Shown: piece after piece, positions 2,848 through 8,499 of the stretch
Layout of the letters: each line of letters starts with the position of its first letter
How positions within the stretch are numbered: position 1 is the stretch's first letter
From: Cyanobium sp.
GTDB taxonomy: Bacteria > Cyanobacteriota > Cyanobacteriia > PCC-6307 > Cyanobiaceae
Direction of reading: 5' to 3'
Assembly: GCA_007135755.1 (NCBI GenBank)
Contig: SLIG01000057.1
Coordinates: 1-32,293 of the forward strand
Length of the DNA: 32,293 bases
Notes under the pieces: generated by a model
Seen by the model: the letters and a program-made list of their open reading frames with translations, nothing else
The model's database searches: none
Told to the model about the DNA's origin: nothing
Position numbers and translations under genes: made by a program

Positions 2848-2992
2848 GGGCCCGTGGCAGTGCGGTGGACATCATGATGTCACCAGTCAAGCGCGTCAGG
2901 ATGTGCCAAGCCTCAGAGCCGCGGGGCATGGAGGGCTTCACCTTTGGACTTAGTCCTTGGCTAAGCTGGATCAGCTGATTGGCGCTCAAGCC

Positions 2993-3322
2993 ATGGATGC
3001 CGTCCCGCCTGCCTCAGTTTCAGATCCGGACGCTCGGAGCACCGCTGTTCCCCTGCGAACGGTGAATGTGCACCAGGCGAAAACCCACCTCTCGCGCCTG
3101 ATCGACGACGCCCACGCCGGCGAGACCATCCTGCTCGCCAAGGCCGGCAAACCCTGGGCCCGGCTGATGCCCCTGGCGCCGCCATCGCCCCAGCGCATTC
3201 CTGGCCGCCTGCGCAGCCGGGGTCCCCTCAGCCAGCCCGATGGCCTGCTCGAGCCCCTGGAGCCCGAGGAGCTCGCCGCCTGGGAGAACGGCCCGCTGAC
3301 GCCCTGGATGCCCCAGCCTTGA
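2993..3322 (+). CDS. Phd/YefM-family antitoxin
   Basis: Predicted antitoxin of a second type II module. The core VNVHQAKTHLSRLIDDAHAG followed by ETILLAKAGKPWARLMPL is the classic Phd/YefM N-terminal dimerisation and DNA-binding domain; the C-terminal region (PLEPEELAAWENGPL) is the likely toxin-binding tail. I chose the ATG at 2993. A TTG at 2957 would add 12 residues, and a GTG at 3062 begins exactly at the conserved core and may be the true start, since family proteins usually begin within a few residues of this motif. The gene ends in a 4-bp overlap (TTGA) with the PIN toxin, indicating translational coupling. Confidence 0.85.
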   Translation: MDAVPPASVSDPDARSTAVPLRTVNVHQAKTHLSRLIDDAHAGETILLAKAGKPWARLMPLAPPSPQRIPGRLRSRGPLSQPDGLLEPLEPEELAAWENGPLTPWMPQP

Positions 3323-3717
3323 GTGCTCCACCCGCCTACCTGCTCGACAGTCACGTGCTGCTGTGGTGGTGGTTCGATCCCGAGCGCCTCTCAGCTCCGG
3401 TGCGGGCCCTGCTCGTCGACCCCGGCACCGCGATCCTGGTGAGTGCTGCCTCGGTGTGGGAACTGAGCCTCAAGCACCATCAAGGCAAGCTGCCGGAGCT
3501 GGACACCGCCATCGCCGACCTGCCGGGCCTGCTGCAGGCCGATGGCTTCCAGCCCCTGCCGATCGCCCTGGCCCATGGGCTGCGGGGCGGCGCTTACCGC
3601 CAGCCCCACCGCGACCCCTTCGATCGCATGCTGGCGGCCCAGGCCGAACTGGAGCGGCTGGTGCTGCTCACCGCCGATCCGGCGTTGGCTGCCTTCCCTT
3701 GCCTGACGCTCTGGTGA
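3319..3717 (+). CDS. PIN-domain toxin, VapC (Sll0205-like type)
   Basis: Predicted RNase toxin paired with the upstream Phd/YefM antitoxin. The 132-residue protein has YLLDSHVLLWWWFDP (first Asp at about 10), SAASVWELSLKHHQGKL with the conserved Glu, the PHRDPFDRMLAAQA block with further Asp residues, and TADPAL near the end: the complete PIN acidic set. The arrangement LLDSHVLLWW ... SVWELSLK ... DPFDRMLAAQA is the form usually partnered with Phd-type antitoxins. The start is TTG at 3319, overlapping the antitoxin stop. It converges on the SUI1-family gene with 19 bp between stops, leaving little room for terminators. Confidence 0.88.
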   Translation: MSAPPAYLLDSHVLLWWWFDPERLSAPVRALLVDPGTAILVSAASVWELSLKHHQGKLPELDTAIADLPGLLQADGFQPLPIALAHGLRGGAYRQPHRDPFDRMLAAQAELERLVLLTADPALAAFPCLTLW

Positions 3718-4109: not shown

Positions 4110-4544
4110 TCAGCTGCCACACCCACTGCTCAATGCAGCGGCCGCCAGCCGTGCATCCGCCGAGATCAGCACGGCCCCGTGGCGCAGCGCCAGGGCCAGG
4201 TAGCTGGCGTCATAGACGCTGAGGCCGAATTGCTGACTCAGTCGCAGGGCCGGCAGACAGAGATCGGCCGTGGGTGCGGTGCGCAGCGGCAACTGCTGCA
4301 GTTCTTGCAGGAGGTCCTCGGCTTCCCCGGGGCTGAGCAGGTCCCGCGCCACCTGTTTGCCCACCACCGAGGTCATCTCCAGCCAGCAGAGATCCGGCAC
4401 CAGCAGCAGGCCCTCGCCGCGGCAGCCGCGCTCCATGACGGCCTCCAGGGTCGCCGGCAGGGGGCCATCGGCCAGATAGAGGCGCAGCAGGGCCGAGGCG
4501 TCGAGAACGTGAGACGCCTCGGGGGATCGCGCTTCAGCGGTCAC
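4110..4544 (-). CDS. PIN-domain toxin, third VapC-type module
   Basis: Predicted 144-residue PIN RNase. HVLDASALLRLYL gives the first Asp, PDLCWLEMTSVVGK the conserved Glu, SVYDASYLALALRHG the third acidic residue and LISADARLAAAA the fourth. I chose the GTG at 4544, which overlaps the antitoxin gene by 11 bp; a longer frame from 4616 would begin inside the antitoxin coding region and has no homologous-looking N-terminus. It belongs to the FitB-like class by domain order and partner. The SUI1-family gene follows 37 nt downstream on the same strand. Confidence 0.85.
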   Translation of the reverse strand: MTAEARSPEASHVLDASALLRLYLADGPLPATLEAVMERGCRGEGLLLVPDLCWLEMTSVVGKQVARDLLSPGEAEDLLQELQQLPLRTAPTADLCLPALRLSQQFGLSVYDASYLALALRHGAVLISADARLAAAALSSGCGS

Positions 4545-4764
4545 GGTCGGCGCGCAGGTCGTCCAGCAGGCCGGGTATCGGGCGGTCCCGCATCCGTTCT
4601 CGCCACTGGCGGGCACGCTCCATCGCGCTTGGCTGGCTCAGTCGCACCTCCCGCTCGATCAGCAGCCGCGCCTGTTCCTGCATGCTGCGGTGATTGCGGG
4701 CAGCCAGGGCCTTGAGTCCGTCGTAGATGTCCTGGGGGATCCCTCGCAAGCTCAGTGATGGCAT
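4534..4764 (-). CDS. FitA/VapB-type ribbon-helix-helix antitoxin
   Basis: Predicted 76-residue antitoxin for the overlapping PIN toxin. MPSLSLRGIPQDIYDGLKAL followed by AARNHRSMQEQARLLIEREV matches the FitA-like Arc ribbon-helix-helix pattern: a beta strand SLSLRGIP, a helix with LKALAARNHRSM, then EQARLLIE. The C-terminus (MRDRPIPGLLDDLRADRDR) is the probable toxin-binding tail. The ATG at 4764 starts directly at the fold; an upstream start at 4788 would add 8 unconserved residues. The 131 bp between this gene and trpB should contain the divergent promoters. Confidence 0.85.
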   Translation of the reverse strand: MPSLSLRGIPQDIYDGLKALAARNHRSMQEQARLLIEREVRLSQPSAMERARQWRERMRDRPIPGLLDDLRADRDR

Positions 4765-4895
4765 GAAGCGGGTCAGCGCTGAGATCAAAACGATATCGAC
4801 TTGTCACGCCTGCGCCTGCTGATCTGGCGCTCCGCCCGCCGGGCGCCCCCCGCCCCAGCCGCTGCCTACGCTGGCCGTAACAGCCCCGGCCCCTG

Positions 4896-6161
4896 GTGAC
4901 CAGCACCGTTCCCCCCCGCAGCAGCACTCCGGCCGGGCCGGACGCCCTTCAGCCCCAGGCCCGGCCCAACGCCGCCGGCCGCTTCGGGCGTTTCGGTGGC
5001 CAGTACGTGCCGGAAACCCTGATGCCGGCCCTGGCCGAGCTGGAGGCCGCCGCCGCCGAGGCCTGGGCCGATCCCGCCTTCACCGGCCGGCTCAACCACC
5101 TGCTGCGCACCTACGTGGGCCGGCCCAGCCCCCTCTATGAGGCCGAGCGGCTCACCGAGCACTACGCGCGCCCCGAGGGCGGCCCGCGCCTCTGGCTGAA
5201 GCGGGAAGACCTCAACCACACCGGCGCCCACAAGATCAACAACGCCCTCGGCCAGGCGCTGCTGGCCTTGCGCATGGGCAAGAAACGCATCATCGCCGAA
5301 ACCGGCGCCGGCCAGCACGGCGTGGCCACGGCCACCGTCTGTGCCCGCTTCGGCCTGGAATGCGTCGTCTACATGGGCGCCGAGGACATGCGCCGTCAGG
5401 CCCTCAACGTCTTCCGCATGCGCCTGCTGGGCGCCACGGTGCAGCCGGTCACCGCCGGCACCGCCACCCTCAAGGACGCCACCAGCGAGGCGATCCGCGA
5501 CTGGGTGACCAACGTGGAGAGCACCCACTACATCCTCGGCTCGGTGGCCGGCCCCCACCCCTACCCGATGCTGGTGCGCGACTTCCACGCCTGCATCGGC
5601 CTCGAGGCGAAAGCCCAGTGCGCCGAGGCCTTCGGCCGCCTCCCGGATGTGCTGGTGGCCTGCGTTGGCGGCGGCTCCAACGCCATGGGCCTGTTCCATC
5701 CCTTCGTGGAAGACACGAGCGTGCGGCTGGTGGGCGTGGAAGCCGCCGGCGAGGGGGTGGCCTCAGGCCGCCACGCCGCCACCATCACCGAGGGGCGAGT
5801 AGGCGTGCTGCACGGTGCCATGAGCCTGCTGCTCCAGGACGGCGAGGGCCAGGTGCAGGAGGCCCACTCGATCAGCGCCGGCCTCGACTACCCCGGCGTT
5901 GGCCCCGAGCACAGCTACCTGCGTGAGATCGGCCGGGCCGAGTATCTGGCCGTCTCCGACGACGAGGCCCTGGCCGCCCTGCGCCTGGTGAGCGAGCTGG
6001 AGGGGATCATCCCGGCCCTGGAAACGGCCCACGCCTTCGCCGCCCTCGACCAACTCTGCCCCACCCTCGCCCCCGGCACCGAGGTGGTGCTCAACCTCTC
6101 GGGCCGCGGTGACAAGGACGTGAACACCGTGGCCGAGCGGCTGGGGGGTCTGAACGGCTGA
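4896..6161 (+). CDS. trpB: Tryptophan synthase beta chain
   Basis: Catalyses the PLP-dependent condensation of indole and serine to tryptophan, working with the alpha subunit TrpA, which is not encoded here. The 421-residue protein shows [14 protein letters not shown] at the start of the fold (33-46), the PLP lysine in [14 protein letters not shown] (K113), [13 protein letters not shown] (134-146), the phosphate-binding GGGSNAMG (258-265) and LSGRGDKDV near the C-terminus. The start is GTG at 4896; the first ~28 residues are a low-complexity lead typical of cyanobacterial TrpB. It is a stand-alone gene converging on anbu with 50 bp between stops. Confidence 0.97.
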
Positions 6162-6211: not shown

Positions 6212-7063
6212 TCAGCTCAGGGCAGGATCCGTGATGGTGCTGGTCCACCTGGCCGTGCTGGCCCCGTCGTTGCCGGTCTGGGGTTCCCACGGGAAGCGCG
6301 GCAGCCGCTCCAGAGCTTCGCGCTGAACCTCCACCCAGGTGTGCAGAAACCCCTGCAGGGCCTCTGAATCCGCCCCCAGGCGCAGCTGCTGGGCCACGCG
6401 CAGTTCGTCGCGGCGCAGGATCACCAGGTCGAAGGGCGGCCCCACGGTGAGGTTGGAGCGGCGCGTGATCACCTGCGACACCAGGCACAGCCGGGCCGCA
6501 TCCTCCAGCGACATCGCCGTGTTGGCCAGGCCATCGAGGGGCGGCTTGCCGTATTTGCTCTCGCCGATCTGCAGGAACGGGGTTTCGGTGGTGGCCATCA
6601 CCGCATTGCCCTGGGGATAGATCATGAACAGCCCATGGGGCTGGCCGGCGATCTGGCCGCCGAGGATGAACGAGGCCGAGCCGCTGGCCCCCGCCTGGGA
6701 GAGCACCGGCTTGAACTCCGCCTGCACCTCGCGGCTGATCTGCCCGATGTAGTCGGCCACCTCGAACAGGTAGTCGGCATCCAGCAGGGAGCCGAGCCGT
6801 CTCTGCTCATCGGTGCTCTTGCCCTTCTCCTCGCTGGCCCCCCGGCCTCGCTGGGCCCGGTCGAGATCGCGCCGGATCCGGTTCAGAACCGCCTGGGTGG
6901 TGGCCAGGTTGCCCGCCGCCAGCAGCACGATCAGGCGGTCGTCGGAGGGCCGGAAGATGTGCATCTTCCTGTAGGTGGAGATGTAGTCCACCCCCGCGTT
7001 GGTGCGGCAGTCCGACGCCATCACCAGCCCCGCTTCCAGCAGGAAGCCCAGGCAATAGGTCAT
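6212..7063 (-). CDS. anbu: Proteasome-like peptidase Anbu
   Basis: Predicted self-assembling Ntn-hydrolase of the Anbu family, an HslV/20S-beta relative. The N-terminus MTYCLGFLLEAGLVMASDCR continuing TNAGVDYISTYRKM is the family signature. Removal of Met1 would expose the nucleophile Thr2, with Asp18 and Lys33 as the other proteasome-type catalytic residues. Length (283) is larger than HslV, as expected for Anbu. Family operons typically contain a transglutaminase-like protein, an alpha-E protein and a circularly permuted ATP-grasp protein; none is in this window. Instead the gene starts 12 nt after the hrcA stop on the same strand, so it is almost certainly co-transcribed with the heat-shock repressor. 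Substrates of this family are unknown. Confidence 0.88.
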   Translation of the reverse strand: MTYCLGFLLEAGLVMASDCRTNAGVDYISTYRKMHIFRPSDDRLIVLLAAGNLATTQAVLNRIRRDLDRAQRGRGASEEKGKSTDEQRRLGSLLDADYLFEVADYIGQISREVQAEFKPVLSQAGASGSASFILGGQIAGQPHGLFMIYPQGNAVMATTETPFLQIGESKYGKPPLDGLANTAMSLEDAARLCLVSQVITRRSNLTVGPPFDLVILRRDELRVAQQLRLGADSEALQGFLHTWVEVQREALERLPRFPWEPQTGNDGASTARWTSTITDPALS

Positions 7064-7075
7064 CGGCTCGTCGCC

Positions 7076-8104
7076 TCAGCTCAGCAGTCGCTGCAGGCTA
7101 GAGGCCACCGAGCGCACCGCCGCCGTGGCGGTGGCGTAGGCCATGCGCATCGGGCCGATCAGGGCCACGTGGCCCACGCCGCCGTCACCACTGCGGTAGG
7201 CGGCCTGCACCACCGCGCAGCCGGCCAGGGCGGCGTGGGGGTGTTCGTCCCCGATCCACACCGCGTTGGGGCGGGGGCCCAGCACCTGCTCGGGTTCCTC
7301 CTCCACCAGCTGCACCAGCGGCCGCAGGCTGGCGGTGTGGCTGAAGTCGGGTTGGGCCAGCAGCTTGCCCAGGCCGCTGGCCACGGCGTCGCGGCCGGGA
7401 CCGGGGCAGGGCAGGGCCTGGGCCTCCACCAGCTGGCGCAGCAGCCGGCCGCTGGTGGCCAGCTCCCGGGGCAGCTGCTGCCAGGCGATGGTGCCGCCTG
7501 TGCGCAGCTGGTCGTTGATCCAGCGCTCCAGAACCGCCAGTTCCGGTTCGCTGCCGGCGGGCAGGCGCAGGTTGTGGCTGCTGGTGTGGGTGGGACCGTG
7601 CACCAGGAACACCAGCAACCGCTCGCCGCTCGGCACCAGCCGCAGGGCCTGCAGCGGGGGCTGGTGCAGCGGTCGGCGCGGCCGGGTGATCAGGCTGAGC
7701 AGACCGGTGAGGTCGGTCAGGCGCCGGCCCAGGTGCAGCAGCAGGTCGTCGAACGACGGCCACTGCAGGCTGAGGGCGGCCAGGTCGCGCTCCAGTTGCA
7801 GGGCGGCGGCGCCGGGGGCGGGCAGCAGCTGGTCCACATACAGGCGGTAGCCCTGCTGGCTGGGTACACGGCCAGCGGAGGTGTGGGGCTGGGTGAGCAG
7901 GCCCTGCTGCTCCAGGGCGCCCATGGCCGAGCGGACGGTGGCGGGGCTGGTGGGCAGGCCGAAGCGCCGCACCAGGGTCTTGCTGCCCACCGGCTCCATG
8001 GTGTCCACGTAGTGGCGCACCGCCAGGCGCAGCACCTCCTGCTGTCGAGGGGAGAGGGCCTGCACCGGTTGCCGTGGCGAGGTGAGTTCCCTGATCGTAG
8101 GCAC
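7076..8104 (-). CDS. hrcA: Heat-inducible transcription repressor HrcA
   Basis: Represses chaperonin genes by binding CIRCE operators, with GroEL modulating its activity. The 342-residue protein has the N-terminal winged helix (about 17-80: LSPRQQEVLRLAVRHYVDTM, EPVGSKTLVRRFGLPTSPAT, VRSAMGALEQQGLL) followed by the signature TSAGRVPSQQGYRLYVD, a central GAF-like region and the C-terminal ALIGPMRMAYATATAAVRSV block. The reading frame stays open far upstream, antisense to other genes, but homology begins at the GTG at 8104 (VPTIRELTSPRQ). It lies 50 bp after the rhodanese stop and 12 nt before anbu. I found no CIRCE element (TTAGCACTC-N9-GAGTGCTAA) in the window, so autoregulation here is not supported. 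Confidence 0.95.
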   Translation of the reverse strand: MPTIRELTSPRQPVQALSPRQQEVLRLAVRHYVDTMEPVGSKTLVRRFGLPTSPATVRSAMGALEQQGLLTQPHTSAGRVPSQQGYRLYVDQLLPAPGAAALQLERDLAALSLQWPSFDDLLLHLGRRLTDLTGLLSLITRPRRPLHQPPLQALRLVPSGERLLVFLVHGPTHTSSHNLRLPAGSEPELAVLERWINDQLRTGGTIAWQQLPRELATSGRLLRQLVEAQALPCPGPGRDAVASGLGKLLAQPDFSHTASLRPLVQLVEEEPEQVLGPRPNAVWIGDEHPHAALAGCAVVQAAYRSGDGGVGHVALIGPMRMAYATATAAVRSVASSLQRLLS

Positions 8105-8154
8105 CTTGCGCAGGGATCTGGATGGCCACCGCGACCGCCGCTGCCGGCGTTGTC

Positions 8155-8499
8155 TCAGTAGCGCGGCACGCTGGGGTCCACCTCCACGCTCCAGGCGTCG
8201 ATGCCGCCCTGCAGGTTCCACACCTCTCCGTAGCCCTGCTGGTCCATCAGCCAGCAGGCGAACTGCCAGCTGCGGATGCCCGCATGGCAGAGCACGGCCA
8301 CCGGCCGGTCGCGCTCCAGCCGCTGGTCCAGGTCCGCCAGCCACTCCTGGGATCGGCTCAAGGGCAGGTGCAGCATCGGGTGGGGCAGCCGCGCCCAGGC
8401 CAGCTCCTGGTCTTCGCGCACATCGACCAGCTGGATCGCCTCGCCCCGCTGCAGGCGCTCCTGCAGCTCGCGGGCGGAGATGCTCAGCGGTGTGGTCAC
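8155..8499 (-). CDS. Rhodanese-like domain protein
   Basis: Predicted 114-residue single-domain sulfurtransferase, cytoplasmic. SISARELQERLQRGEAIQLV and DVREDQELAWARLP form the first half of the fold; the active-site loop is LCHAGIRSW with catalytic Cys71, and NLQGGIDAW is the conserved C-terminal motif. I chose the GTG at 8499; an ATG at 8544 would add 15 residues and overlap the start of the divergent DUF3352 gene. It is the first gene of a probable minus-strand unit with hrcA and anbu. The sulfur acceptor is unknown; proteostasis or redox sensing is only an inference from context. Confidence 0.88.
   Translation of the reverse strand: MTTPLSISARELQERLQRGEAIQLVDVREDQELAWARLPHPMLHLPLSRSQEWLADLDQRLERDRPVAVLCHAGIRSWQFACWLMDQQGYGEVWNLQGGIDAWSVEVDPSVPRY

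Follow-up and report, generated by a model that had tools for sequence, protein, structure and literature searches.

Why should a gene for a proteasome-like protein stand directly behind the gene of a heat-shock repressor? The question is raised by a 32,293-nucleotide stretch of DNA from Cyanobium sp. (assembly GCA_007135755.1, contig SLIG01000057.1; the whole stretch is called the window here), in which genes for a rhodanese, the repressor HrcA and Anbu, a proteasome-like Ntn-hydrolase subunit, follow one another on the minus strand. A preliminary description of the sequence had reported this order with a 12-nt gap between hrcA and anbu, remarked on the lack of the usual Anbu partners, and proposed a role in proteostasis and a distinct Anbu sub-lineage. 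All three genes are real, all lie on the minus strand, and the gap from the hrcA stop codon (7078-7076) to the anbu ATG at 7063 is exactly 12 nt:

8155..8499 (longest open reading frame from 8544), minus strand: rhodanese, single-domain (PF00581, E 1.3e-12)
7076..8104, minus strand: hrcA, heat-shock repressor, GTG start, 342 aa (PF01628, E 1e-27)
7064..7075, minus strand: hrcA-anbu gap, 12 nt
6212..7063, minus strand: anbu paralog A, proteasome-like Ntn-hydrolase subunit, 283 aa, T1/D17/K32 (mature numbering) intact
4896..6161, plus strand: trpB (Pfam PALP), a convergent neighbour that closes the unit and is not a member of it

The family to which this genome belongs carries three Anbu paralogs in three conserved settings, two of them beside glutamine or formylglutamate enzymes, which provides concrete partners for testing; this set of settings is a more informative finding than the window unit alone. 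The explanation towards which we lean, with modest confidence, is that hrcA and anbu form a transcription unit through which a horizontally acquired and duplicated Anbu contributes to peptide and nitrogen turnover accompanying folding stress.

Identity and conservation of the hrcA-anbu unit

The window protein is Anbu by both sequence and fold. With phmmer it matched the solved Anbu proteins 5loy (1.7e-67), 5nyj (1.3e-53), 5nyf (4.9e-53), 5lox (1.8e-50) and 5nyw (6.7e-46), and rows 1-31 of a Foldseek search of the PDB with its model were all Anbu entries. Its score against the Pfam Proteasome family, 17.9 bits, lies under the 22.4 cut-off, which is probably why a genome-wide Pfam search did not return it. 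No HslV or 20S subunit above the Pfam cut-off was found in the genome, and the cyanobacterial phylum is reported to be without HslV (PMC5666114). Like CPH, the cyanobacterial proteasome homolog (PMC8665760), the window protein is a proteasome-like cyanobacterial protein, but CPH clusters with BPH and HslV in group I, according to the same article, whereas the window protein is Anbu. The HrcA protein scores 181 bits against TIGR00331, under the 197 cut-off, and its DNA-binding domain gives a LexA-type match of 22 bits, under the 23.7 cut-off; its C-terminal domain PF01628 is present, and hrcA of the window is the sole HrcA match of its genome. The rhodanese start at 8499 is a GTG inside the longer open reading frame (8544-8155). 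Downstream, the window anbu is followed by trpB, which lies on the opposite strand, so that no usual partner adjoins it, as had been described.

A survey of cyanobacterial Anbu neighbourhoods, which had been suggested as a check, showed that the link to hrcA is conserved. Of 400 genomes sampled from the family, 81 gave an Anbu match; hrcA, sought in these 81, was found in 79, and in 70 it lies directly upstream of anbu on the same strand. The anbu match is in one piece in 62 of the 70, with gaps of -1 to 80 nt as measured from match ends (17 at -1), while in the other eight an insert splits it, and the distance between hrcA and the 5' piece of the match is about 34-165 nt. In 14 loci, which all belong to genus g6, the sequence shows the stop and start codons overlapping by 1 nt (TGATG). 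The pairing also occurs with the other cyanobacterial Anbu type, in a distant family, f5: in 5 of 30 loci (G410, G654, G657, G687 and G688) the first gene found upstream of anbu is a same-strand hrcA, at a distance of about 27 to 420 nt. HrcA of G410 was confirmed by Pfam, and one f5 locus, L203, begins too near anbu to judge.

Three Anbu paralogs, their settings and their origin

The window genome (2.75 Mb, 99.4% complete) gave three Anbu matches, so that the idea of the window copy as its only Anbu proved false: A, the window copy, is on contig C73, B on C166 (64% identical) and C on C16 (44%). The anbuB gene is followed by a glutaminase gene (PF04960, 3e-102) with which it shares an ATGA overlap, and anbuC stands behind transglutaminase-like and N-formylglutamate amidohydrolase genes and ahead of a NUDIX gene. 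Immediately after anbu comes glutaminase (glsA) in 20 of the 28 loci of B type, and a sodium/glutamate symporter gene (gltS) lies within the available stretch in 16 of them; L069, an A locus with a gap over the limit, is excluded from the 28. Transglutaminase is directly upstream of anbuC in 14 of 18 C loci.

Sister paralog B points to glutamine/glutamate metabolism, and its neighbours favour a possible but less probable explanation of the window unit, namely that anbuA just uses a steady hrcA promoter, with no link to heat shock, and serves in glutamine/glutamate scavenging as B would. In keeping with it, three of the 33 A loci (L098, L112 and L145, all of genus g48, the last with a fragment only) carry glutaminase after anbuA; the two longer of these glutaminases, in L098 and L112, form a branch separate from the B-linked ones. 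The two nearest outgroups have gltS beside anbu, in the order gltS-anbu-glsA in a Phycisphaera-labelled contig (L241) and divergent to anbu in Lamprocystis (L246), and both the conserved gene order around hrcA and the failure to find a CIRCE (controlling inverted repeat of chaperone expression) near hrcA, described below, would fit as well. It accounts less easily for three observations: gltS is absent from all A loci searched, A has diverged from B both in the length of the loop and in the motif preceding the conserved SN pair, and hrcA adjoins anbu also in a second family, a distant one, before an Anbu of another type. The label of L241 (Phycisphaera mikurensis metagenome-assembled genome, MAG) may be wrong, or may mark an anbu-glutaminase cassette outside cyanobacteria.

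The proposal of a distinct Anbu sub-lineage was borne out by phylogeny. In a tree of 78 rows built without loci L029-L053, the A and B copies join in a single clade (100/100), separate from C and from the cyanobacterial type D. In a wider tree of 115 hand-picked rows, A/B nest with Lamprocystis purpurea and the Phycisphaera-labelled contig (100/95), Thiocapsa and other gammaproteobacteria are next out (100/100), and C groups with alpha- and betaproteobacteria (100/97). Holding A/B together with D was rejected by the approximately unbiased (AU) test on a 70-row subset (p-AU 0.0047), which rules out vertical descent from ordinary cyanobacterial Anbu and indicates a separate origin. As placed by these sequences, the window Anbu lineage is of gammaproteobacterial type, and we infer two horizontal acquisitions and one duplication, the direction of transfer being read tentatively from the nesting. 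B is a starred clade placed among the A rows in both trees, where several forks are weak. Across a phylum sample, Anbu was found in 49 of 291 genomes, with all matches above 47% identity inside the window's family; among the genomes examined, the A/B lineage is confined to this cyanobacterial family. Among 80 named loci, hrcA stands beside anbu only in five A loci. These include L236, a contig labelled as a Bifidobacterium breve MAG that carries a cyanobacterial hrcA-anbu-trpB locus at a branch length of 0.004 from a family genome and is probably a mislabelled bin.

The classical Anbu operon comprises genes for ATP-grasp, alpha-E, transglutaminase and Anbu; the four-gene operon, two Anbu subtypes and induction by nitrogen limitation in Pseudomonas putida are described in the literature (PMC6376114, PMC8665760, PMC7760821, PMC12316311 and PMC5666114). 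The window protein belongs to the same Anbu family, and the partner set is present in its genome on contig C91, where circularly permuted ATP-grasp, alpha-E and transglutaminase genes adjoin a urease alpha gene (protein of 573 aa). Unlike in the classical operon, the C91 set is without any of the three Anbu and the window copy lies behind hrcA. The possibility that the partners are located elsewhere as a complete Anbu operon thus held in part: the partner set is on C91 and an Anbu is beside a transglutaminase on C16, but no complete classical operon was found in the genome. It is ordinary for a cyanobacterial Anbu to lack its classical partners: of 20 Anbu stretches of 10-13 kb, each from a different genome of another cyanobacterial family, 16 have neither alpha-E nor transglutaminase by tblastn. 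The lack is therefore weak as a special sign. The position of the C91 set (L198 5309-10487) directly beside a urease alpha gene is a further link to nitrogen.

The scattered partners raise the possibility that AnbuA acts in trans with the C91 set, the classical system being present but dispersed. We regard this as unlikely. The set does lack an Anbu of its own, and in the gammaproteobacterial kin of the window lineage (Thiocapsa L238 and L240, Chromatiaceae L239) alpha-E is nearby, with a circularly permuted ATP-grasp also in L238 (Pfam check). However, the C copy already stands beside a transglutaminase, and co-expression and pull-down of the Yersinia bercovieri operon proteins detected no specific interaction, as reported in PMC6376114. 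In one proteobacterial contig (L262), anbu occurs together with alpha-E, transglutaminase and a match to glutaminase that is distant (34%). An Ectothiorhodospiraceae contig (L242) carries two Anbu genes separated by about 1.2 kb, accompanied by alpha-E and by a match to transglutaminase.

Protein features and selection

The window Anbu begins Met-Thr, with no propeptide, and possesses T1, D17 and K32, which are kept in 109 of 109 Anbu sequences, a set filtered for an M-T/S start and a D-x-R-T stretch. This start-motif filter was too narrow and dropped 13 frames, most of them starting GTG or MTYG and two being broken genes; 12 of the 13 also have the three residues and the 13th is without its N-terminus. 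At positions assigned to the S1 pocket in Pseudomonas aeruginosa Anbu (PMC5666114), Tyr30 and Ala48 occur in 48/48 A and 19/19 B sequences, and Phe30 and Ser48 in 15/15 C sequences. D sequences have Tyr30 in 27/27 and Thr48 in 20/27, with Thr or Ser at position 48 in 24/27. Exceptions among the dropped frames are a B copy with Thr48 (L104) and a D copy with Ala48 (L181, the same gene as L151).

The AlphaFold2 monomer model of the window Anbu has a mean pLDDT of 89.3, with low confidence in the tail past about residue 260. Helices H1 and H2 are placed at 53-73 and 99-123, with low confidence between them, and the C-terminal helix H5 at 234-253. The H1-H2 linker is 34-141 residues long in A (41/48 sequences measured), 31-36 in B (18/19), 26 in C (15/15) and 25 in D (13/27); the linker motif failed to measure 22 of the 109 sequences, 14 of them D. 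It is likely in this long loop that A copies depart from those linked to glutaminase, and the two also differ in the motif before the SN pair. The AnbuA proteins of L066, L068-L072, L105 and L108 reach 302-362 aa and exceed the B copy of the window genome (250 aa) by 52-112 residues, the extra length lying mostly between H1 and H2. Compared with the Anbu-1 type (Pseudomonas aeruginosa 5lox, Hyphomicrobium 5nyj, Yersinia bercovieri 5nyw), the window protein shares the fold, T1/D17/K32, the S1 positions T20 and L52 and the C-terminal H5. In contrast, A sequences have Ala48 where P. aeruginosa has Thr48 (PMC5666114), their linker exceeds the 25-26 residues of C and D, and classical operon partners are missing. 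The ratio of nonsynonymous to synonymous substitution rates (dN/dS) of anbuA was 0.23-0.36 in four of four pairs, well below 1, and the idea of a decaying gene was dropped on that account.

Regulation and possible role of the unit

In hrcA-grpE-dnaK-dnaJ heat-shock operons, chaperone genes follow hrcA. The window unit is comparable in that a gene of plausible proteostasis function comes after hrcA, but Anbu replaces the chaperones and no convincing CIRCE lies ahead of the unit. A search of the genome allowing up to three mismatches gave two CIRCE-like sites, of which one precedes groES and neither is near hrcA. Given these positions, and the repression of heat-shock genes by HrcA in Synechocystis and Nostoc (PMC7760821), HrcA probably works as usual, but its classical targets do not include the hrcA-anbu unit. 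The second site (L200 4385-4411, contig C109) lies at the end of an open reading frame, before a small gene, and no chaperone gene was recognised in that 10 kb stretch.

According to the explanation that we favour, an ancestor of the family would have received a gammaproteobacterial-type Anbu horizontally, perhaps already paired with glutaminase. The acquired gene would have settled behind hrcA within a rhodanese-hrcA-trpB block and then duplicated, one copy being kept with hrcA and mostly without glutaminase (A) and the other with glutaminase (B). AnbuA would be made from the hrcA transcript, with translational coupling in some relatives, and its supply would be steady alongside HrcA instead of CIRCE-induced. 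By analogy with published Anbu, the protein may lose its start Met, expose Thr1, assemble into an open split-ring oligomer and hydrolyse amide bonds of small or unfolded peptides; its most likely use would be in peptide and nitrogen turnover during protein-folding stress. The pairing with hrcA is, in that sense, a candidate tie of Anbu to such stress. Among the open-access papers listed by our searches, judged largely by title, we found none that pairs Anbu with a neighbouring hrcA or a bacterial glutaminase; going by titles, PMC6376114 alone deals with Anbu, and its single mention of hrcA is a title in its reference list.

Several observations weigh against this explanation. No CIRCE was found in the window at up to three mismatches, nor a convincing one in the 700 nt preceding hrcA at 48 loci, of which 13 are short and repeat genomes; there, three weak asymmetric matches, two of them one and the same site, were all that appeared. 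Heat induction through HrcA is therefore not supported, and binding of HrcA to its own unit was dropped as its cause. Likewise, no NtcA-type GTA-N8-TAC site was found upstream of 52 mixed A and B anbu genes or of an A set of only seven, a weak test on which nitrogen control by NtcA was also dropped; with neither kind of site, neither heat nor nitrogen control is supported. Published Anbu proteins were inactive as peptidases on standard substrates (PMC6376114, PMC5666114) and are reported as not heat-induced (PMC6376114). In the same four comparisons as above, anbuA evolves faster than hrcA (dN/dS 0.15-0.24) and trpB (0.08-0.12). The adjacency also has exceptions: trpB lies between hrcA and anbu in 2 of the 81 Anbu-bearing family genomes (G062 and G094), the two genes are apart or on fragments in 5 (G002, G157, G193, G207 and G363), one (G112) gave no hrcA and three (G235, G334 and G369) have no listed place for anbu. 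Moreover, the DUF3352-rhodanese-hrcA-trpB block is syntenic across the family anyway, so that the 70 adjacencies are not independent events; the rhodanese is beside hrcA also in a relative, G012, where no Anbu was found. In other families, hrcA is beside anbu in only 1 of 27 loci (L148-L174), that of G410, in a scan that covered these loci and wider stretches of 20 genomes (19 shared), carrying type D.

The heat-shock or proteostasis role first proposed is thus not supported so far, considering that no convincing CIRCE was found and that the sister paralog goes with glutaminase and often a glutamate symporter; a proteostasis role of the window Anbu is plausible but unproved. A more direct connection, with AnbuA adjusting the heat-shock switch by degrading or trimming HrcA, would agree with the tight coupling of the two genes, but it is very improbable: hrcA is apart from Anbu in 26 of the 27 other-family loci, and no Anbu substrates are known according to PMC5666114. 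More generally, Anbu function and substrates are reported as not known in PMC6376114, PMC5666114 and PMC8665760. A broader view, tentative and rather doubtful, is that Anbu has split into three machines, one for glutamine/glutamate (anbuB), one for amide salvage (anbuC) and one for stress (hrcA-anbuA, with its grown loop). Their shared theme might be a nitrogen-recovery hydrolase for peptides or gamma-glutamyl conjugates, the hrcA copy tying this route to folding stress. A defence link for the unit was dropped, as PADLOC gave no match.

Beyond trpB, three toxin-antitoxin-like pairs (2115-2847, 2957-3717 and 4110-4788 of the window) are crowded between cysC and trpB, each consisting of a PIN-domain gene and a match to a ribbon-helix-helix or Phd antitoxin.

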